This document shows, one piece after another, positions 10,330 to 26,204 of a stretch of 26,204 nt of DNA. The translations under genes and the position numbers were made by a program. Source of the stretch: a virus. Position 1 is the first letter of the stretch. Each line of letters begins with the position of its first letter. The stretch spans positions 1 to 26,204 of IMG/VR virus record IMGVR_UViG_3300022723_000125; one strand, written 5' to 3'. Below the pieces are notes generated by a model. It had not been told where the DNA came from and ran no database searches. It saw nothing but the letters and a program-made list of their open reading frames with translations.

Positions 10330-11751
10330 TCAATCCACCACCTCTTCCACCTCGGCCTCGTCGGCCGAGGTTTTCTGCGGCATCTCGGTTACCGGCGCGG
10401 CGATGCGTTCGGCCTTGCGCCCGGTGAATTGCTCCCAGCGCTGAACGATCACGTCGCAATACGCCTGGTCGATCTCCATCAGGAACGCGCGTCGGCCCGT
10501 CTGCTCGCAGCCGATGAGCGTCGAGCCGCTGCCGCCGAACAGGTCGAGCACGTTCCCGCCGGGCTTCGATGAGAACTGGATCGCCCGCACCGCCAGCTCG
10601 ACCGGCTTCTCGGTCAGGTGAACCATCGACTGCGGGTTGACCTTCTTGATGTGCCAGAGGTCGGTCGCGTTGTTCGGGCCGTAGAAGTGATGGCCCGCTC
10701 CTTCCTTCCAGCCGTAGAAGCAGATCTCGAACGCGCCCATGAAATCCTTGCGCGTCAGCACCGGGTGCTGCTTGTCCCACACGATGCCCTGGCTGAAGTA
10801 CAAGCCCGTCGCTTTGAGCGGGCCGGGATAGTTGCCGAGGTTGGCGTACCCGCCCCAGACGTAGAACGAACCGCCGGGCTTGAGCACGCGCGAGGCATTA
10901 CCAAACCACGCCAGGAGCATCTCGTCGAATGCCTCGGCCGTGACGAAATCGTTCTCCAGCGGCCGGTCCTTGGCCCGCATCTTCTTGTGCGTGCCCTTGG
11001 CCTTCTCCGGGTGCCGTTGCAGGTCGAACTTCTGATGATGCCCCCCGGATACGCCCGAACCTTTCGCGGCCTTGAACGACGAGTTGCCTGCGGCAATCGC
11101 GTTGTTGCTGCGCGGTTCGACGCGGACGTTATATGGCGGATCAGTATTGATCAGGTCGATGGTCGCGCCGTCCAGCAGCCGGTCGAGATCGTCGATGCTG
11201 GAACTGTCACCGCAGAGCAAGCGGTGATCACCGAGCACCCAGATGTCGCCGCGCTGCGTGATCGGGTCGTCCGGCGGCTCGGGCACCGAGTCCGGGTCGG
11301 TCAGCCCTTCGGTCACCCCCTCGGCGTCGTTGAGCAGCTTCGCCAGTTCCTCGTCGTCGAACGCGAGGACCTCCATGTCGAAACCGCCTTCGCGCAGCTC
11401 GTTCAGCTCGATCGGCAGAATTTCCAGGTCCCACTCGGCCAGCTCGCCGGTCTTGTTGTCGGCGATGCGGTAGGCGCGCACCTGATCCGGCGTCAGGTCG
11501 GTGGCGACGTGGACCGGCACTTTGGCCAGCCCCAGCTTCTGCGCCGCCTTCCAGCGCGTATGGCCGGCGATGATCACGCCGTCGGCGTCCACCACGATCG
11601 GCTGGCGGAACCCGAACTGCCGCAGCGAGTCGGCGACGGCGTCCACCGCGCCGTCGTTGATGCGCGGGTTGCGCTCGTAGGGCTTGATGTCGTTGATTTC
11701 ACGGAGCCTGACCGCGAATACAGTCTTTGCTGAATCCTTGACAACGTTCAT
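10330..11751 (-). CDS. ParB-domain DNA methyltransferase (beta class, N6-adenine or N4-cytosine)
   Basis: 473 residues. Residues about 10-110 are a ParB/Srx-like domain (V-I-I-A-G-H-T-R-W-K-A-A-Q, residues 59-71). The methyltransferase follows, with catalytic T-D-P-P-Y (203-207) before the SAM-binding D-L-F-G-G-S-G-S (403-410). This order defines the beta group of amino-methyltransferases. The region between, with G-H-H-Q-K-F and E-K-A-K-G-T-H-K-K, would include the target-recognition part. The enzyme probably marks phage DNA against host restriction or regulates replication. The ATG overlaps the upstream HNH stop (ATGA) and has GGAG six bases away. Its last codons also contain the terminator hairpin of the convergent operon. 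Confidence 0.9.
   Translation of the reverse strand: MNVVKDSAKTVFAVRLREINDIKPYERNPRINDGAVDAVADSLRQFGFRQPIVVDADGVIIAGHTRWKAAQKLGLAKVPVHVATDLTPDQVRAYRIADNKTGELAEWDLEILPIELNELREGGFDMEVLAFDDEELAKLLNDAEGVTEGLTDPDSVPEPPDDPITQRGDIWVLGDHRLLCGDSSSIDDLDRLLDGATIDLINTDPPYNVRVEPRSNNAIAAGNSSFKAAKGSGVSGGHHQKFDLQRHPEKAKGTHKKMRAKDRPLENDFVTAEAFDEMLLAWFGNASRVLKPGGSFYVWGGYANLGNYPGPLKATGLYFSQGIVWDKQHPVLTRKDFMGAFEICFYGWKEGAGHHFYGPNNATDLWHIKKVNPQSMVHLTEKPVELAVRAIQFSSKPGGNVLDLFGGSGSTLIGCEQTGRRAFLMEIDQAYCDVIVQRWEQFTGRKAERIAAPVTEMPQKTSADEAEVEEVVD
10350..10374 (+). terminator. Rho-independent terminator for the plus-strand operon
   Basis: CCTCGGCC-TCGTC-GGCCGAGG forms a perfect 8-bp stem followed by TTTT, read on the plus strand 26 bases after the last plus-strand stop. 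It lies inside the 3' coding end of the opposing methyltransferase gene. On the minus strand no T-run follows, so it should work in one direction only. Confidence 0.75.
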
Positions 11752-12044
11752 TGCGACTCCTTTCGCGCATCGTGGCGCTCGTTCCATCTGACGATCTCGC
11801 GGCACATGCCGACGAATTGCTCGTTGGTCAGCGAACCCTTGGCTCGGTTCACATCCTGATGCAGGACCTGTGCGTTCTCGATTGCATGCTCGCCGCCGCA
11901 ACGGATCGGGACGATGTGGTCCAGCGATGACGTCTCCGGCGTCAATTCACGGCCGGTCAATGCGCAGCGATACGCCTGGTATTCCAGCAGGCACATCACG
12001 TTCTTGGTTGACACCGTGCCGGTGGGCCTCGGGAGGCTTACCAC
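11748..12044 (-). CDS. HNH endonuclease
   Basis: 98 residues if started at GTG 12044, which overlaps the upstream stop by seven bases. The core is a compact HNH domain: Y-Q-A-Y-R-C-A-L-T-G, then S-L-D-H-I-V-P-I-R-C-G-G with the metal-site histidine, then E-N-A-Q-V-L-H-Q-D-V-N-R-A-K-G. The frame remains open further upstream, but that part has poor protein character, while the overlapping +1 frame looks coding there, so the longer reading is rejected. The exact start is uncertain (GTG at 12044, a second GTG or an ATG slightly downstream). Its stop is fused to the methyltransferase start (ATGA). The pair might be a simple restriction-modification or DNA-processing couple; HNH proteins also help some terminases cut. 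Confidence 0.75.
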   Translation of the reverse strand: MVSLPRPTGTVSTKNVMCLLEYQAYRCALTGRELTPETSSLDHIVPIRCGGEHAIENAQVLHQDVNRAKGSLTNEQFVGMCREIVRWNERHDARKESQ

Positions 12045-12695: not shown

Positions 12696-15059
12696 TTAGT
12701 TCGCCGGCTCACCGGCCGACTTCTTGACTTGTTGCGCCACTTCTTGCGCCTGCTTTTGCCCCCGCAACCGGTACTGGCGGGTCGGCCTGCCGCCGGTCGC
12801 CAGCTCCCGGTATTCGATCTCGTGCGAGTTGATCAGGGTCTGGCGGACGTCGTCGTGGACGCGCGGCGGCCATTTCAGCCGCTTGCTGATCCGCCAGAAC
12901 GGCATCCACTGCTCGCCGTGGCCGTCGCGCCACTGCCGCAGCACGCGCAGCATCTCCTTGCACATCGCGTCGAACTCGTTTCTCGCGACGTACTCGTTGG
13001 ACAGGTGCAGCATGCGACGGATCTGGTGCTCGCTGAACGCACGCGCCCACTCGGCCGCGTCGAGGTCGACCACCGGCTCGGCGCGGTTCTTGCTGCAGGC
13101 GTACAGCAGCGCCAGCTTGCGCGCGTTCTCGTTGCCCCGGCCCCACACCGTCCGCGTGACCTCGTCCTCGCGCGGGGCTTTGCGGTACTCGCCGTCGCAC
13201 AGCGCCCGAAACCCGTTCATCAGTTCGCGCGCGTCGTCGGTGTACGGCACGATCGCCGTCTTCGGGTGCTCGCCGCGCAGGTTGCCCGGCTCGGTGTAGG
13301 GCTGGTTCTCGTTCCACCACTTGGCCGTCTCGACCACGGCGGCGGGCAGGTCGTCGATGATCGCGCCGTCCTGACCCTCGCTGCGTTCAGCGACATCGAC
13401 CACGACCATGCGCGCAAAAAACCCGTTCGTGAGCATGCGCTCGCTGAGCGACTCGTAGTAGCTCTTGGGCGTGGCCGTGCCGTAGAGCGTGATGTGCGGC
13501 TGGTCGATGCTGCCGCCCGAATCCTTGCCCGCCTTGTGCCGGATCGGGTAGACCGAGTTGGCGTAGGAGTACATCGACAGCAGCGTGGTCATCATCGACT
13601 TGTGGTGATGCTCCTTGCCGGCCTTGATCGCCTGGAGCATGCCGTCGACCTCGTCGTTCTGATAGAGCGTGTTCGGGCACTTGGCCAGCTGGTCCTCGAT
13701 GCCCTCGCCGGATGAGAACTTGTCGCCGAGGCAGCGCGTCTGGTCGATCGTGAACAGGATGCGGTTGTTGATCTTCCGCGGGTGGTCCTTACCCGTGCCC
13801 GCGCCGGCCAGCGCCAGCAGGTAGATGTTGGTCCGCAGGTCGCTGCCGTCGCGTACCTTGCGGCCACACAGGAACGACTGCAGCGCGATCGCACCGCAGA
13901 ACGACAGGCCCACGTTCGGATACGGCGCGGTGCCCAGCGAAAACGCCATCACCTCGCCGATGAAGCCCGGCACCTCGAATAGCCGCTCAGGGATCGGACC
14001 GGGGTCGGGGAACGGATCGTCGTCGGCCGCGTCATCATCGTCGTCGCGGCCGCCGGTCACGATGCCGGAGATGTTGACATCACGATCGTCCGCCGGCTCC
14101 GTGCTGCCGTAGCCCTGCTCGGCTAGCGCCCGCGTCGCCGATGCGAAGTCGCCGCCGTGTTCGAGGTAGGCGTAGACGGCGAACGGCGAGTAGGCCTGAT
14201 TCGCCTCGAACGGCGCGGCGTTGGACGAGAAGACGTAGAACACCAGCCCGGTCGGGCACTGCTTCAGCGTCGCCGACGTGCCCGAGTTCTTGCCGGGCCG
14301 ACGCCAGTGCGCGTTCCCCCCGGAATCGCCATCGCTGACCCGGCACCAGCCGTGGGTTTCCAACACGGCCCGCACGTCGCCGCGTGTGTTGTAGTCGTCG
14401 CCGGGGCGATCCGTGGCCGCACCCGCGACCGGTCGCGACACGTGGCCAACGTGGGCGGACTGTGGCGAAGTCCGGGGATTCCGGGGCGTTTGGGGGCCGT
14501 CAACGACCGGGGGCACGTACTCGTTCAGTTCCCACGCCGCCTGCAGCAGAATGTCCCGATCCTGCTCGGTCAGCACGGGCAGGTCGCTGAAATCGCCCTG
14601 CGTGACCTCGTAGCCCTCGGTCGGCGCGCAGATGATCAGCCCGCCTTCGCCGCGCGTTTCGATCAATGTGATGACGCCGTCCTCGGTCATCCGTTGCGCG
14701 AGCTTCAGGTTGCCGCAGATGTCGATCACGCAGCGGTAGATGACGTGCCACCCGCCTGAGCGGGTCCGCTCGATGACGAGCTTCGCCCGCAGGCCCTCCG
14801 GCAGCTTCGCCCACCACGCGTCGAACAGCTCACCGGCCGCGTCGAAGTCCATCGCCTCGAGATTCCCCGACGCCTGCCCGCAGAGAATGCACAGCGCGTC
14901 GGGGTTGTTGGCGAACCACGCCGCCAGTTCCGCCTCGGTCGGCTTGCGCGTGCGGTACGGCTTCCACTTGCCGACCTGCCGGATCGGGCGCTTGTCCGCT
15001 CGGCTCGCCGGCAGGGCGCACAGACCCGCCTCGATATATCGCTGCGCCGTGTCGATCAT
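12696..15059 (-). CDS. Bifunctional primase-polymerase with DUF3987 helicase-like domain
   Basis: 787-residue replication protein. Residues about 5-180 are a prim-pol (AEP) domain: catalytic M-D-F-D (70-73), S-G-G-W-H-V-I-Y-R (101-109) and E-T-R-G-E-G-G-L (134-141). Residues about 215-320 are a linker domain often seen in these proteins (N-T-R-G-D-V-R-A-V-L-E-T-H-G-W). Residues about 340-360 are very acidic (DDDDDAADDD). Residues about 370-700 are a DUF3987 ATPase with Walker A G-A-G-T-G-K-D (419-425) and Walker B Y-Q-N-D-E-V-D (466-472). It should make primers and unwind or extend DNA at the phage origin. GGAGG lies seven bases before the ATG, which overlaps the previous stop (ATGA). The 3' end holds degenerate copies of the origin-like boxes. 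Confidence 0.9.
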   Translation of the reverse strand: MIDTAQRYIEAGLCALPASRADKRPIRQVGKWKPYRTRKPTEAELAAWFANNPDALCILCGQASGNLEAMDFDAAGELFDAWWAKLPEGLRAKLVIERTRSGGWHVIYRCVIDICGNLKLAQRMTEDGVITLIETRGEGGLIICAPTEGYEVTQGDFSDLPVLTEQDRDILLQAAWELNEYVPPVVDGPQTPRNPRTSPQSAHVGHVSRPVAGAATDRPGDDYNTRGDVRAVLETHGWCRVSDGDSGGNAHWRRPGKNSGTSATLKQCPTGLVFYVFSSNAAPFEANQAYSPFAVYAYLEHGGDFASATRALAEQGYGSTEPADDRDVNISGIVTGGRDDDDDAADDDPFPDPGPIPERLFEVPGFIGEVMAFSLGTAPYPNVGLSFCGAIALQSFLCGRKVRDGSDLRTNIYLLALAGAGTGKDHPRKINNRILFTIDQTRCLGDKFSSGEGIEDQLAKCPNTLYQNDEVDGMLQAIKAGKEHHHKSMMTTLLSMYSYANSVYPIRHKAGKDSGGSIDQPHITLYGTATPKSYYESLSERMLTNGFFARMVVVDVAERSEGQDGAIIDDLPAAVVETAKWWNENQPYTEPGNLRGEHPKTAIVPYTDDARELMNGFRALCDGEYRKAPREDEVTRTVWGRGNENARKLALLYACSKNRAEPVVDLDAAEWARAFSEHQIRRMLHLSNEYVARNEFDAMCKEMLRVLRQWRDGHGEQWMPFWRISKRLKWPPRVHDDVRQTLINSHEIEYRELATGGRPTRQYRLRGQKQAQEVAQQVKKSAGEPAN

Positions 15060-15317: not shown

Positions 15318-17066
15318 TCAGAACGGGATGTCGTCGTCGGGCAGGTCGAACTCGGCGGATGCGGCGTCCAGTCCGCCGTCGGGGTCGTCCATGCGCGGCG
15401 GAATCGGGCCGAACCGGTAATCGACGAGGCGGTTGAACTTTTCGCCGGTGACATGGCGCACGGTGATCGCGTGAACAGGCGCGAGCGAACCGGCTTCCGC
15501 CAGTTCGACTGCTTCGTCGGCATCGGTGGGGCACGGCTCGTTCGATCGCGCGCGCCACCACGCCTCTGCCTTCTGCCTGGCATAACTGCCGAGCGGATGC
15601 TCGACGCAGACCCACTCGCTGCGGTGGTCGTTGAACCCGACGCGGTAATCGACCCGGAGCGTGCGCGGGTGCCCCTCGGGCGCATCGCGCTTGACGTGCG
15701 CCGAGTAGTAGACGCCCTGGACCTCGTATTCGGTCTCGGTCACCTCGCCGGAGATGATGCCGGCGGTCGACGCCTGCCGGTCGTGCTGCTCGCGCTTCGG
15801 CGGCGGAAACTCATATCCGCAGTCCGGGCAGACCGCGTAGGCGGCGTGGATCAGAGCGTTGCACTGCGGACATTCCTTCGCCGGCGCTTCGCCACCCCCG
15901 GAACTCGGGTCTTTGATCTGCAACGAATCGACGGGGCCGTGGCGCAGGATGTTGCCGCCGAAGTCGAGGACCAGGCAATTCTCCTTCGACGGGTGCAGCC
16001 GGAACCCTCGTCCGACCATCTGGTAGTAGAGACCCGGCGAGTTCGTCGGCCGCAGCATCGCCACGCAGTCAATGTTCGGCGCGTCGAACCCGGTGGTCAG
16101 CACGTTCACGTTGACCAGGTATTTCAGATCACCCGTCTTGAATCGCTGCAGCGTCTCGGCTCGCTCGAACGGCAGCGTGTCGCCGCAGACGAACCCGCAG
16201 TCGTGGCCCATCTCGCCGAGCACGCGCTGCACGTGCAGGGCGTGATGCACGCCGGCGGCGAAGATCAGCACGCTGTTGCGGTCCTGCGTGTGGCCGACGA
16301 TCTCCCTGCACGCCGAGGCGACCAGCGAGTCGTCGTCCATCAAGGCCTCAACTTCGCCTGCAATGAACTCGCCTCCCCGCAGGTGCAGCGATTCGAAGTC
16401 CGCTTTCCGTCGCCCGGCCTTGGTCTTCAGCGGGCACAGGTAGCCCTGCACGATCAATTCGCGCACGCCGACCTCGTAGCAGACGTGATTCAACAGGCCA
16501 TCGGGCGCAGGCGCACAGATCGTGCCGGTGGTCATGCGGTACGGCGTGGCGGTCAAGCCGATCAACCTGACGTTGGGATTGACAACCTTCGCGTCGCGCA
16601 GGAACCGTTGGTACATCCCATCGCCCGACGGCGGGATCATGTGCGCTTCGTCGATCAGGATCAGGTCGAACCGGTCGAGTTCGGCAGCGCGCCGGTACAC
16701 GCTCTGGATGCCGGCGACGATGATCGGGTGATCGGTGTCACGGCTTTTAAGGCCCGCCGAGTAGACACCGATCTGGTGCCACAAGTCTGGAGCCATCGCG
16801 TGCAGTTTGTCGGCGGCCTGCTCCAATAGTTCCTTCACGTGCGCCAGGATCAGCACGCGGCCATCCCACTGCTGCACCGCGTCGCGGCAGATCGTCGCCA
16901 TGACCGGCGTCTTGCCGCCCGCCGTGGGGATGACCACGCACGGGTTGTCCTCGCGCGTTCGAAGATGGTGATAAACCGCCTCGACCGCCTTGCGCTGATA
17001 CTCACGCAACGTGATCGTGGTGGCCGACGCTTCCGGGGGCGGGGCCTGTTCGGCTGCCGCGATCAT
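15318..17066 (-). CDS. DEAH-box superfamily 2 helicase with zinc ribbon and SSB-like C-terminal tip
   Basis: 582-residue helicase. Motif I is I-P-T-A-G-G-K-T (46-53), motif II D-E-A-H (139-142), motif III T-A-T-P-Y-R, and motif VI Y-Q-M-V-G-R-G-F-R (348-356). A four-cysteine zinc ribbon follows (Cys399, 402, 413, 416). A C-terminal region of about 160 residues includes D-Y-R-V-G-F-N-D-H-R. The last residues are F-D-L-P-D-D-D-I-P-F, essentially the conserved tip with which bacterial SSB recruits repair and replication proteins. It probably unwinds DNA for phage replication or recombination. The ATG at 17066 has GGAGG ten bases upstream and starts two bases after the RusA stop. The N-terminal extension in this frame overruns RusA and is rejected. 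Confidence 0.9.
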   Translation of the reverse strand: MIAAAEQAPPPEASATTITLREYQRKAVEAVYHHLRTREDNPCVVIPTAGGKTPVMATICRDAVQQWDGRVLILAHVKELLEQAADKLHAMAPDLWHQIGVYSAGLKSRDTDHPIIVAGIQSVYRRAAELDRFDLILIDEAHMIPPSGDGMYQRFLRDAKVVNPNVRLIGLTATPYRMTTGTICAPAPDGLLNHVCYEVGVRELIVQGYLCPLKTKAGRRKADFESLHLRGGEFIAGEVEALMDDDSLVASACREIVGHTQDRNSVLIFAAGVHHALHVQRVLGEMGHDCGFVCGDTLPFERAETLQRFKTGDLKYLVNVNVLTTGFDAPNIDCVAMLRPTNSPGLYYQMVGRGFRLHPSKENCLVLDFGGNILRHGPVDSLQIKDPSSGGGEAPAKECPQCNALIHAAYAVCPDCGYEFPPPKREQHDRQASTAGIISGEVTETEYEVQGVYYSAHVKRDAPEGHPRTLRVDYRVGFNDHRSEWVCVEHPLGSYARQKAEAWWRARSNEPCPTDADEAVELAEAGSLAPVHAITVRHVTGEKFNRLVDYRFGPIPPRMDDPDGGLDAASAEFDLPDDDIPF

Positions 17067-17068
17067 GT

Positions 17069-17488
17069 TCAGTTGTCCTCCGGGTTGACCAGCGCGCCGC
17101 ACGCCGGGCAGCGCCGAAGGGGCATGTCCTCGATCGTGACGATGATCTGTCCACCTTCGCGTCGTGCGCGACGCCGCGTGAGCAGCAGGTCGATCTGGCT
17201 GTCGTCGAGATAGACCCCCGCGTGCTCCATCGCGTCGAGCAGCGGCTTTTGAAGGTTGTCCAGATCGCGCCGACGACGATCCGGCGGGAACGCGTCCATG
17301 CACAGCGCGATCCGCCCGTCGCGGGGCGGCTCGTTGCCCTGGCCGGATGTCTGCGTCAGCAACTCGCACACCTCGGCGCGGAACCGCCGACCGTCGCGGC
17401 TGATCACCATGCGGTTGTTCCACTTCCGCCAGTAGTGGTTGATCGACGGAGGGAACGGCAGCGTGAATTTCCTCTCAGCGTTTTTCAT
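17069..17488 (-). CDS. rusA: RusA-family Holliday junction resolvase
   Basis: 139 residues from the ATG with AAGGA eight bases upstream; an ATG seven codons earlier lacks a ribosome site. The RusA signature is clear: F-P-P-S-I-N-H-Y-W-R near the start, then P-P-D-R-R-R-R-D-L-D-N-L-Q-K-P-L-L-D (68-85) and Y-L-D-D-S-Q-I-D (93-100), which carry the metal-binding aspartates and the lysine of the active site. RusA dimers cut four-way DNA junctions made during recombination. There is a C-terminal C-P-A-C-G with no visible second cysteine pair, probably the remnant of a zinc ribbon. It is coupled to the helicase gene downstream. Confidence 0.9.
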   Translation of the reverse strand: MKNAERKFTLPFPPSINHYWRKWNNRMVISRDGRRFRAEVCELLTQTSGQGNEPPRDGRIALCMDAFPPDRRRRDLDNLQKPLLDAMEHAGVYLDDSQIDLLLTRRRARREGGQIIVTIEDMPLRRCPACGALVNPEDN

Positions 17489-17569
17489 CAAAGTATCCTT
17501 GCATTGCATCGCCGTTGCGCACCTGGCGCGGGCGTGCTTAACCCAGCCGAGCCTTCCCGGACGAAGTAT

Positions 17570-18242: not shown

Positions 18243-18710
18243 TCACCGCCGTTTCCACGGCGGCGTATTGCTGTCGGCCGGAGCCTGCGGTGGCGCTGCC
18301 GGCGCAGCGTTGGACTCGACGGCCTCGTATCCTTTAACCTCATTGGTGATCTCGCCGTTGTCCTCGCGCTTGCGGCACTTAACAGAGATCGTCAATGAGA
18401 TGTTGTGCAAGTCGGTCGAGTCGTTGGGCTGCAGCACGTCGACCGCCCGACAGATCGCCGACAGGTTGCCCCGCGCGATCTTCTGCGTCAGGTCGTTGGG
18501 GTGGTTGATGCAGAGCCGGTCCCAGACCTTGCGCCCCTGGTACGCACCCTCAAGCACGGTGTACTCGAGCTGGAGGTAACTGCCGTCACCCTTCTTCGTG
18601 GGCTTCATCTCGCTGGCGGTGATCGCCGCGACGTACTTGCCCGCGGGCAGCGGGTCGAAGGACATGGTGGGTTCGACTTCGTTGGCGTTGAATCCGGTGA
18701 GGTTAGCCAT
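18243..18710 (-). CDS. DUF669 single-stranded DNA-binding protein
   Basis: 155 residues matching DUF669: F-D-P-L-P-A-G-K-Y-V-A-A-I-T-A-S-E near the start, then S-Y-L-Q-L-E-Y-T-V-L-E-G and G-R-K-V-W-D-R-L-C-I-N-H-P-N, and N-I-S-L-T-I-S-V-K-C. This family supplies an SSB-like function beside Sak4- or Erf-type recombinases. The C-terminus is a Pro/Ala-rich tail ending P-P-W-K-R-R. It is basic and lacks the acidic tip of bacterial SSB, which is instead found on the helicase of this operon. The start overlaps the end of the ATPase gene by eight bases, with AAAGGA nine bases upstream. Confidence 0.85.
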   Translation of the reverse strand: MANLTGFNANEVEPTMSFDPLPAGKYVAAITASEMKPTKKGDGSYLQLEYTVLEGAYQGRKVWDRLCINHPNDLTQKIARGNLSAICRAVDVLQPNDSTDLHNISLTISVKCRKREDNGEITNEVKGYEAVESNAAPAAPPQAPADSNTPPWKRR

Positions 18711-19515
18711 TGGTGGTTTCCTTTTGCTGGCTGGTGGTGTTGGGGTTCGTCGTGTCGGTCGTGTTCGTCATCGCGTCCATCAGCGCCCGCCACGACAGCG
18801 ACAACTCGGCGGGCAGGCCGAAGCGGTTCTTCGCCACGCAGGACGGGCTGCCGACGCAGCGCAGCACACGGTCGCCGCCGTCCTTGCCGAGGCCGGACGC
18901 CAGCGTGCGCGTGCGGTTGAAGCCGGCGTCCTCGGTGCGCGTGATCACCTTGCGCGTGGCGAACAGCACCGCGTCCGCCCATTCGGTGACCACCGCGTTG
19001 GCGTGCTTGTGGAGCCGGGGCGAGAAGCGGTCGTAAGCGCCGACCTCGGGGTCGGAGAACGACTCGACCTTCGCGTGCGCCAGGACGATGACGCACATGC
19101 CGCGCTGGTTGCGCAGCACGTCGAGGCCCGACAGGATGCTGCGCCAGTGCGTCAGCGCGTGCGTGTAGCCCCGGGCGTAACCGCCGTCGACCTTCTCGAT
19201 GCTGTTGACGCCGTACTCCTTGCACAGCGCGTCCCAGATCAGGCGCTCCAGCCAGTCGAGCGAGTCGATGACGACGGTCTGGAACTCGTGCTTCTCCTTG
19301 ATCAGCGCGTCGATCGCGTTGATCACATCATCGAGCTTGTGTGCAAGTGGGAAGCTGGCGCAGTCGATCTCGCCGAGGCCGTCCTCGGTGGGGATGAAGA
19401 TCGCGCCCGGTGCCTGCGCCGCCGTGGTGGATTTACCGATCCCTTCGGTGCCGTAAACCAGCAGCCGGGGCGGCTTGTGCTTTCGACCGTGATGAACCTG
19501 TTTGATCAGTGACAT
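18703..19515 (-). CDS. Sak4/AAA_24-type RecA-like recombination ATPase
   Basis: 270 residues with a minimal RecA core: Walker A Y-G-T-E-G-I-G-K-S-T (21-30) and Walker B T-V-V-I-D-S-L-D-W-L-E (80-90), followed by V-I-V-L-A-H-A-K-V near residue 146. Phage proteins of this class anneal single strands together with an SSB-like partner, which is encoded next door. The C-terminal tail is Asn/Thr/Gln-rich (TNTTDTTNPNTTSQQ) and probably disordered. The ATG at 19515 has AGGAG eight bases upstream. A longer frame upstream would overlap the winged-helix gene fully and is rejected. Confidence 0.85.
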   Translation of the reverse strand: MSLIKQVHHGRKHKPPRLLVYGTEGIGKSTTAAQAPGAIFIPTEDGLGEIDCASFPLAHKLDDVINAIDALIKEKHEFQTVVIDSLDWLERLIWDALCKEYGVNSIEKVDGGYARGYTHALTHWRSILSGLDVLRNQRGMCVIVLAHAKVESFSDPEVGAYDRFSPRLHKHANAVVTEWADAVLFATRKVITRTEDAGFNRTRTLASGLGKDGGDRVLRCVGSPSCVAKNRFGLPAELSLSWRALMDAMTNTTDTTNPNTTSQQKETTNG

Positions 19516-24727: not shown

Positions 24728-24932
24728 ATCAGCCTCCGTGCGCCGACCCCGAAGAGGCCAGACAGGTAGAAGGTGAGACGGGGCTCAGTCCTTGGCCCCA
24801 ACTCGGTGTTGATCGCAACTGGCGCGCCAGACTTGAGTTAGCGCGCAAGACATGGCTTTGCCGAAGCTTGCGGCGAAAGCGTGGGGCCGTCGGGGCTGTC
24901 TATTATGGTGTCACCACCGGAGCGGCTGTCAA
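24728..24932 (-). promoter_or_regulatory. Candidate cassette promoter and palindrome
   Basis: These 200 bases hold no gene. On the minus strand TTGACA (24932-24927) and CATAAT (24907-24902) are 19 bases apart, slightly long but otherwise promoter-like, about 175 nt before the cassette start. Downstream in the leader is a perfect 12-bp palindrome CTGGCGCGCCAG (24819-24830), a possible operator. The -35 box overlaps the end of the small HTH gene. Confidence 0.45.
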
Positions 24933-25339
24933 TGTGGCAGGCGGGTGGTGAGCTGCTCCCACATCTTCCGCTGCCTGGACCAGTTGTGTTCGGCGGCGAT
25001 CGCGCGGAGATGGGTTTCGGTGATCGGGTCCTTGCCGGACGTGACTGGCGGCAGGTGGAGAATGGCTTCCTGAATGTCAGGGGCGAGCGACAGCAGGTTC
25101 ATGATCTGCGTGACACGGGCGCGGGTGACGTGGCTGACGGCGGCGATTTCGGCTTGGTCGCGGACGAGGCCGTCGGCGATCATCCGGTCGAACTTGATCG
25201 CCAGCGCCATCAGGCGGGCGACACGGGGCACACGGGCGGACGACGTATCGCGCACTGGCGCGGGGCCGGGCCTGATCTCGCGGCGACCCTTGTTGGCCAG
25301 CGAGAAGTGAATCTTCTTCGTCACCGTCAGGTCGTTCAT
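24929..25339 (-). CDS. Small HTH/ParB-like partner of the serine recombinase
   Basis: 136 residues. The core R-V-A-R-L-M-A-L-A-I-K-F-D, then RDQAEIAAVSHVTRARVTQI and M-N-L-L-S-L-A-P-D-I-Q-E, is a helix-turn-helix of the KorB/ParB type. It is followed by H-L-P-P-V and a segment E-T-H-L-R-A-I-A-A-E-H-N-W ending in a Trp/Arg-rich helix. Proteins of this build are regularly found directly after large serine recombinases, notably in planctomycetes. The ATG overlaps the recombinase stop (ATGA) with AGGAGG seven bases upstream, so both are made together. It could regulate recombinase expression or act as a directionality factor for excision; neither is shown by sequence alone. Confidence 0.8.
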   Translation of the reverse strand: MNDLTVTKKIHFSLANKGRREIRPGPAPVRDTSSARVPRVARLMALAIKFDRMIADGLVRDQAEIAAVSHVTRARVTQIMNLLSLAPDIQEAILHLPPVTSGKDPITETHLRAIAAEHNWSRQRKMWEQLTTRLPH

Positions 25340-26204
25340 GCGTCAGCCTCCTGGTGCTGCTGAGTCAGCGTGCGGATGCCGGTGGGGTGGAAGGTCAGCG
25401 AGATCGACTCGTCCGCGCCGTCGTACTCGACGCGCTCGACCAGCAGGCGAATGAGCTTCTCCTTGTGCGCCGGCGGCAGCGATTCCCACAGCGGGTCGAA
25501 TGACTCGATCGCCCCGGCCAGTTCGTCCGGCTCAAGCATCCGCTGTTCGAGCACGGCGATCTTCTCGTTCAGCCCGCCGATGTCGGTCTGCCGCTCGCGG
25601 ATCAGGTCCTGCAGGCGTCCGAGTTGGCGCGTGGCGTCTTCATCGAAGCCCGCGCGCGGCGCGAGCTCGCCGACGGCGCGTCCGTGCTTGCGGACTTCGT
25701 TCTCGACCTGTTTCCGCTCGGCGACGAGCGCGTCGATCTCCGCTTGCATGTGCTGCTGCGTGGCGACCAGGCTGTCGGCCAGCACGCCGGGGTCGCGGCC
25801 GACGGACTTGATCTGCTCGACCACGAAGTCCTCGAGCTGGACTGCGGGCAGCGACGGGGCGGGGCACGCCGACCATCCGTTCTTCTGGGCGCGGATGCAG
25901 ACGTAGTAGCGATACCGCTTGTTGCCGCGCTGCGAGTAGTGGTGGCCCATCGCGCAGCCGCAGTGCTTGCAACGGACCAGCCCCTTGAGCAGCGCGCCGT
26001 ACTTGTTGCGGACGTGCTTGCCGCCGGTGTTGCGGTTGCGGGCGATCAGCCCCTGGACCCGCGCGAACAGGTCATCGTCGACGATCGCCTCGTGCTCGCC
26101 TTCGAACACGTCGCCCTTGTACGTGACCTTGCCGAGGTAGGTGACGTTGGTGAGCATCTTGTGCAGCGTCGCCTTGTCGAAGTCCGCGCCGCCGCGCCAT
26201 TTGC
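25336..26204 (-). CDS. Large serine recombinase (integrase), partial
   Basis: The C-terminal 288 residues are present; the catalytic serine domain lies beyond the right edge. The visible part begins with the end of the recombinase domain (K-W-R-G-G-A-D-F, L-T-N-V-T-Y-L-G-K-V), followed by the zinc beta ribbon (L-V-R-C-K-H-C-G-C-A-M, then Y-Y-V-C-I-R-A-Q-K and C-P-A-P). A long coiled coil follows (residues about 150-235: EIDALVAERKQVENEVRKHG and later helices), as in phiC31-type integrases, where it brings att sites together. The last part is beta-rich (V-E-Y-D-G-A-D-E-S-I-S-L-T-F). It would insert and excise the phage between attP and attB; attP is usually next to this gene and therefore outside the window. 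Confidence 0.92.
   Translation of the reverse strand, partial: KWRGGADFDKATLHKMLTNVTYLGKVTYKGDVFEGEHEAIVDDDLFARVQGLIARNRNTGGKHVRNKYGALLKGLVRCKHCGCAMGHHYSQRGNKRYRYYVCIRAQKNGWSACPAPSLPAVQLEDFVVEQIKSVGRDPGVLADSLVATQQHMQAEIDALVAERKQVENEVRKHGRAVGELAPRAGFDEDATRQLGRLQDLIRERQTDIGGLNEKIAVLEQRMLEPDELAGAIESFDPLWESLPPAHKEKLIRLLVERVEYDGADESISLTFHPTGIRTLTQQHQEADA

Follow-up and report, generated by a model that had tools for sequence, protein, structure and literature searches.

In bacteria, genome maintenance proteins dock mainly onto one peptide, the C-terminal tip of SSB. SSB tips dock into ExoI, RecO, RecQ, chi, PriA, PriC and RNase HI (PMC10238739). E. coli RadD (YejH), an SF2 repair ATPase, also binds the tip, in a pocket on its RecA-like domain 1 that consists of R21, R49 and R145 together with T16, L17, F20, L44, L113 and L147 (PMC10238739). 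The DUF669 SSB of phage HK620 ends in NDYPPF, and these six residues are needed for Sak4 (PMC5928155). In phage T7, the acidic C-terminal tails of gp4 contact basic patches on T7 polymerase, and their removal cuts processivity threefold (PMC8472574).

We analyzed a 26-kb virus record (26,204 nucleotides, hereafter the window) encoding a RadD-like helicase that ends in an SSB-like tip. The helicase resembles RadD in its SF2 core and zinc ribbon, with 26-28% identity in structural alignment. However, RadD receives the tip and has none of its own, whereas the phage helicase displays a tip and has lost one pocket arginine. This tip is the same hexapeptide, DDDIPF, as in bacterial SSB, and it likewise lies at the extreme C-terminus after a disordered linker, but it is carried by a motor enzyme instead of an OB-fold protein and occurs once per chain. 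As in HK620, a phage recombination module with DUF669 and Sak4 contains a C-terminal tip, which in HK620 controls an interaction (PMC5928155). In HK620, however, the tip is on the SSB, while the DUF669 protein of the window ends in PPWKRR and the helicase has the tip. Another phage helicase, the T7 gp4 helicase-primase, contacts its partner through an acidic tail at the C-terminus (PMC8472574), although gp4 is a hexameric replicative helicase whose partner is the phage's own polymerase, and the present helicase is a RadD-type motor. The two parts, the RadD-like helicase and the SSB tip, are known, and their combination is an unusual reversal: the cellular member of the family receives the tip and the phage members display it. 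In the literature that we searched, mostly papers available without subscription, phage RadD-like helicases with an SSB tip had not been described.

The helicase and its gene neighborhood

In the translation of the window, the minus-strand frame of the helicase reads ...DAASAEFDLPDDDIPF and then a stop codon, and the C-terminus of the protein (minus strand, 17066-15318) is ...EFDLPDDDIPF. This confirms the original prediction, made from the DNA alone, that the helicase ends in FDLPDDDIPF with the same tip as bacterial SSB. The interval given for this ending, 15318-15347, is at the right site but is one codon short, in that it covers the stop and nine residues only; the ten residues and the stop codon occupy 15318-15350. 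The DNA pattern for DDDIPF plus stop has one match in the window and none in 100 dinucleotide shuffles. The helicase most likely starts with the ATG at 17066, just past the RusA gene, which yields a protein of 582 aa. A 701-aa ORF starting at 17423 is a mechanical extension of the helicase frame.

The helicase has ResIII/DEAD and Helicase_C domains according to Pfam and is a member of phrog_16 in PHROGs. Its nearest solved homologue by sequence is E. coli RadD (E 3e-64), and RadD structures (7r7j, 8h5y and 6jde) are also the top Foldseek matches of its model (E 2.5e-38). The fold is thus that of the SF2 ResIII/DEAD family and not that of a RecA-like hexameric (DnaB-type) helicase, and the key motif residues are invariant among relatives. 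Searches with Pfam, PHROGs and Foldseek gave no match of the helicase to an SSB family and no OB-fold ssDNA-binding domain. The AlphaFold2 model, built from a 114-sequence alignment, has a mean pLDDT of 89, and its tail is predicted to be disordered (Table 1).

Table 1. Features of the window that are relevant to the helicase and its tip
Feature	Position	Strand	Details and basis
Primase-polymerase/helicase	12696..15059	-	Downstream, same gene cluster; PF09250, phrog_3022, phrog_19930
RadD-like SF2 DNA helicase, 582 aa	15318..17066	-	ResIII/DEAD, Helicase_C, zinc ribbon, C-terminal domain, disordered tail; Pfam, PHROGs, Foldseek
Tip DDDIPF (SSB-Ct-like)	15321..15338	-	Stop at 15318-15320; sequence, conservation, synonymous codon variation
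Disordered tail, residues 564-582 (linker and tip)	15321..15377	-	AlphaFold2 pLDDT <50; linker entropy about 3 bits
Zinc ribbon (C399, C402, C413, C416)	15819..15872	-	Follows the motor core; UPF0547 match; four Cys columns invariant in alignment of relatives
RusA-type Holliday junction resolvase	17069..17509	-	Directly upstream of helicase; Pfam, PHROGs
DUF669 single-strand-binding protein	18243..18710	-	Without acidic tip, ends in TPPWKRR; Pfam, PHROGs
Sak4-like annealing ATPase	18703..19512	-	phrog_124, AAA_24; possible alternative tip partner

Besides the primase-polymerase, RusA, DUF669 SSB and Sak4 genes listed in Table 1, the gene cluster of the helicase contains genes for a sigma-like protein and an exonuclease. 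In nearly all loci of relatives, Sak4 is found near DUF669 and near the helicase. Elsewhere in the window, we noticed an N6/N4 DNA methyltransferase fused to a ParB-N domain (10330-11901) and a ParB-HTH/recombinase-like gene (24929-26157). The latter adjoins an ORF at the end of the window that resembles the C-terminal part of a serine recombinase.

The close relatives of the helicase, which reach 88% identity, occur mostly in Planctomycetota genomes, mainly Phycisphaerae, and these include the complete chromosomes ZRK34 and syqfu. Given this distribution, the window most likely derives from a planctomycete phage or prophage. The chromosome of Planctomycetes bacterium syqfu (CP087563.1) has 13 RadD-like matches and at least nine helicase loci (L093, L095, L100, L101, L104, L105, L111, L112 and L115), which suggests that this one genome houses about twelve related prophages.

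Conservation of the tip

The SSB-like acidic-x-P-F tip is present in 144 of 145 non-redundant relatives from planctomycete phages and prophages, the single exception (L118) ending in NDISA. All 78 complete relatives in IMG/VR have a P-F end with acidic residues nearby, and nearly all relatives in GTDB also end in this way. In a separate de-replication that gave 146 non-redundant relatives, positions -6, -5 and -4 are acidic in 84%, 85% and 86%, respectively, and are followed by I, V or L, then by P (145/146) and F (144/146). The entropy is 0.06 bits for the final Pro and 0.12 bits for the final Phe, compared to about 3 bits per position in the linker. The occurrence of an SSB-like tip on the helicase is therefore far beyond chance across the relatives. 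A tip that is conserved in homologues while the linker varies had been expected in advance, and freely varying ends would have spoken against the idea; the expectation held.

The Pro codons of the relatives are CCG, CCC, CCT and CCA in 62, 37, 24 and 22 cases, and the Phe codons are TTC in 76 and TTT in 68. Since both codons vary synonymously, the tip is under selection as a peptide and not as DNA. We considered that the tip could be a by-product of an overlapping DNA signal, and the synonymous variation rules this out. The downstream ribosome-binding region of the window also falls beyond the helicase stop.

The tip stays at the end of the protein when the preceding region is rearranged. In three relatives (L122, L135 and L160), whose helicase cores are 71-79% identical to those of relatives, a cysteine-rich module (CPxCG...CAWCGRWLRWV) is inserted between the C-terminal domain and the tip, which is still last. 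In another (L064), an unrelated linker has been substituted and the tip is kept at the extreme end. A helicase on a Fimbriimonadales contig (L125:6883-8619) ends in EEEIPW, with Trp for Phe; the SSB frame of that genome seems to have another end than IPW.

The tip among phage proteins

We searched 21,724 ORFs of at least 70 aa from 243 loci and the window with a broad tip pattern. All 184 matches are the helicase; the loci contain 234 complete helicases. When whole records were scanned, a degenerate acidic-[IMV]PF pattern matched at the helicase in 16 records, one of which has a second match in another ORF. The reversed-pattern control gave no matches. No protein matched in the 20 records with tip-less helicases, for a pattern that misses some tips of other composition such as PDPDVPF of Vid5.

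The window's DUF669 protein ends in NTPPWKRR and has no acidic tip, as had been predicted. Yet it should not be treated as tail-less, because an A/P-P-W motif lies within the last 30 residues in 210 of 226 DUF669 ORFs. In the window (18243-18266) and related loci, this motif reads T/A-P-P-W followed by K/R or A. It is possible that the PPW motif itself serves for docking, with Sak4 as a conceivable partner. The DUF669 tail may then serve Sak4, and the helicase tip something else.

The original prediction also proposed that the helicase took over a recruiting role from the phage SSB. We reject such a transfer as a rule, since the DUF669 proteins in the relatives' loci lack an acidic tip whether or not the helicase has one. 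The 20 records with tip-less helicases also speak against a swap, in that the acidic-[IMV]PF scan finds no tip elsewhere in them. A record with a tip-less RadD-like helicase (L339:4828-7689) encodes a clamp-like processivity factor ending in EDDDIPF. This single selected case is perhaps an alternative tip carrier.

In an IMG/VR sample, at least 118 viral ORFs end in exactly DDDIPF. They include 33 bacterial-type SSBs and many members of other phage SSB families, as well as five RadD-like helicases, two Erf-like annealers, one clamp-like protein and one DnaB-type helicase. Among the matches listed, phages put DDDIPF on several replication proteins. Most of the recognized families among these matches bind ssDNA, the RadD-like helicase standing out as the chief exception that recurs.

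Distribution and evolution of the tip

Pseudomonas phage JG054 and its kin have a helicase at 38% identity that ends in DFDDDIPF, and the helicase of Pantoea phage Vid5 ends in PDPDVPF. The helicases of Variovorax phage VPv64 and many other relatives either stop where the folded domain does or carry different tails. E. coli RadD ends in AHELRG and has no tip. Given that the tip is present in the distant JG054 group and absent from other relatives and from E. coli RadD, it has been gained or lost several times in RadD-like helicases. On a tree calculated after removal of the last 45 residues, six or more changes in the tip are required; under a stricter definition of the tip there are eight, fewer than in any shuffle, although the uncertain root and long branches limit what the tree says on gain versus loss. 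Tentatively, and with slightly less than even confidence, we suggest that phage RadD-like helicases acquired the tip more than once, or early with repeated losses, and so became SSB-like hubs to which host proteins of repair and replication are drawn directly. A family of SSB-tip receivers would thereby have turned donor.

Host SSBs and candidate partners

The SSBs of 30 genomes that carry the helicase mostly have the same kind of end, such as EDDIPF, GDDIPF, DDDIPF or DDNVPF, and three are cut by contig ends. The proposed comparison with host SSB C-termini thus bears out the likeness. RecO, PriA, RecQ and ExoI had been named as possible partners. RecO and PriA were found in all ten planctomycete host genomes that we searched among these 30, and a full-length RecQ scored above the cut-off in seven. 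By contrast, ExoI is present in 0/10 and so cannot be the partner in these hosts. The polymerase chi subunit, found in 1/10, was rejected together with ExoI, the one being nearly absent and the other absent. In the host genome ZRK34, no RadD homologue was found other than the prophage helicase, so that at least this host seems to have no chromosomal RadD itself.

Possible functions of the tip

We consider it somewhat probable that the helicase carries a mimic of the SSB tip on a flexible leash and thereby recruits host proteins that bind SSB, among which PriA and RecO are the most plausible. The disordered, fast-evolving linker would present the sequence acidic-acidic-acidic-[I/V/L]-P-F, with its free carboxylate, at the extreme C-terminus. 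While the RadD-like motor acts on branched or forked phage DNA, the tip would dock in the conserved SSB-tip pocket of at least one host SSB-interacting protein. The docked host proteins would thus be brought to phage DNA, bypassing host SSB. PriA could restart replication on the recombination intermediates that are made with Sak4. RecO is the other most plausible planctomycete partner. We infer that the tip binds a partner, which partner this is, and that it recruits rather than blocks. The role of the tip is dispensable, as shown by tip-less relatives that have the same DUF669 and Sak4 neighbors. There is one tip per helicase chain versus four per SSB tetramer, and the affinity for the partner may therefore be modest.

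Since the helicase is homologous to RadD, itself an SSB-tip binder, the tail could instead fill the helicase's own RadD-type pocket, in the same or a neighboring molecule, as an autoinhibitory or oligomerizing latch that host SSB could displace. Among 145 relatives of the planctomycete group, the position of R145 is Arg in all and that of R21 in 138, and the hydrophobic positions of the pocket are mostly hydrophobic. However, R49, the arginine that in the top RadD model binds the carboxylate of the Phe, aligns to Val in 143/145 beside an insertion, the L17 position is Tyr in this group, and R21 is mostly lost in the tip-bearing JG054 group. E. coli RadD also has the pocket without a tip. Intramolecular docking is not seen in the AlphaFold model, which leaves the tail unplaced at pLDDT <50. 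On balance, self-docking seems unlikely. We likewise find it improbable that the partner of the tip is a phage protein of the same module (Sak4, the exonuclease, the primase-polymerase or RusA), bound in the manner of the HK620 NDYPPF tail. HK620 Sak4 does require the last six residues of its SSB (PMC5928155), and Sak4 is near the helicase in nearly all loci. But tip-less helicases have Sak4 and DUF669 beside them just as often, the conserved PPW tail of DUF669 could serve Sak4, and the tip closely matches host SSBs and is found again on many phage proteins of unrelated families.

By the same chemistry of docking, the tip would also compete with host SSB, and it might be a decoy that shields phage DNA by blocking host repair nucleases or recombinases at their SSB-tip pockets. 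However, host SSB is normally abundant, a tip tied to a helicase with invariant key motif residues would be a costly decoy, and the obvious target, ExoI, is missing from the hosts. We regard this as quite unlikely. A generic acidic tail could adjust solubility or the affinity for DNA and resemble SSB by chance; in SSBs, acidic tails are in competition with DNA, and tip-less relatives exist. Yet the final Pro and Phe are nearly invariant, so that more than an acidic composition is conserved, and in tip-bearing records the pattern falls on the helicase, with no matches in the reversed control. This explanation is largely refuted and very improbable.

Conclusions

The observation behind the original prediction is confirmed, and its interpretation as a whole is partly supported: a recruiting role would fit all the data. 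The final Phe is the single residue expected to switch the interaction off, and the JG054 group of Pseudomonas phages opens the question to a tractable laboratory host. A tip that is strongly selected on a phage motor and missing from the phage SSB points to the possibility that these phages directly capture host replication restart or recombination proteins.
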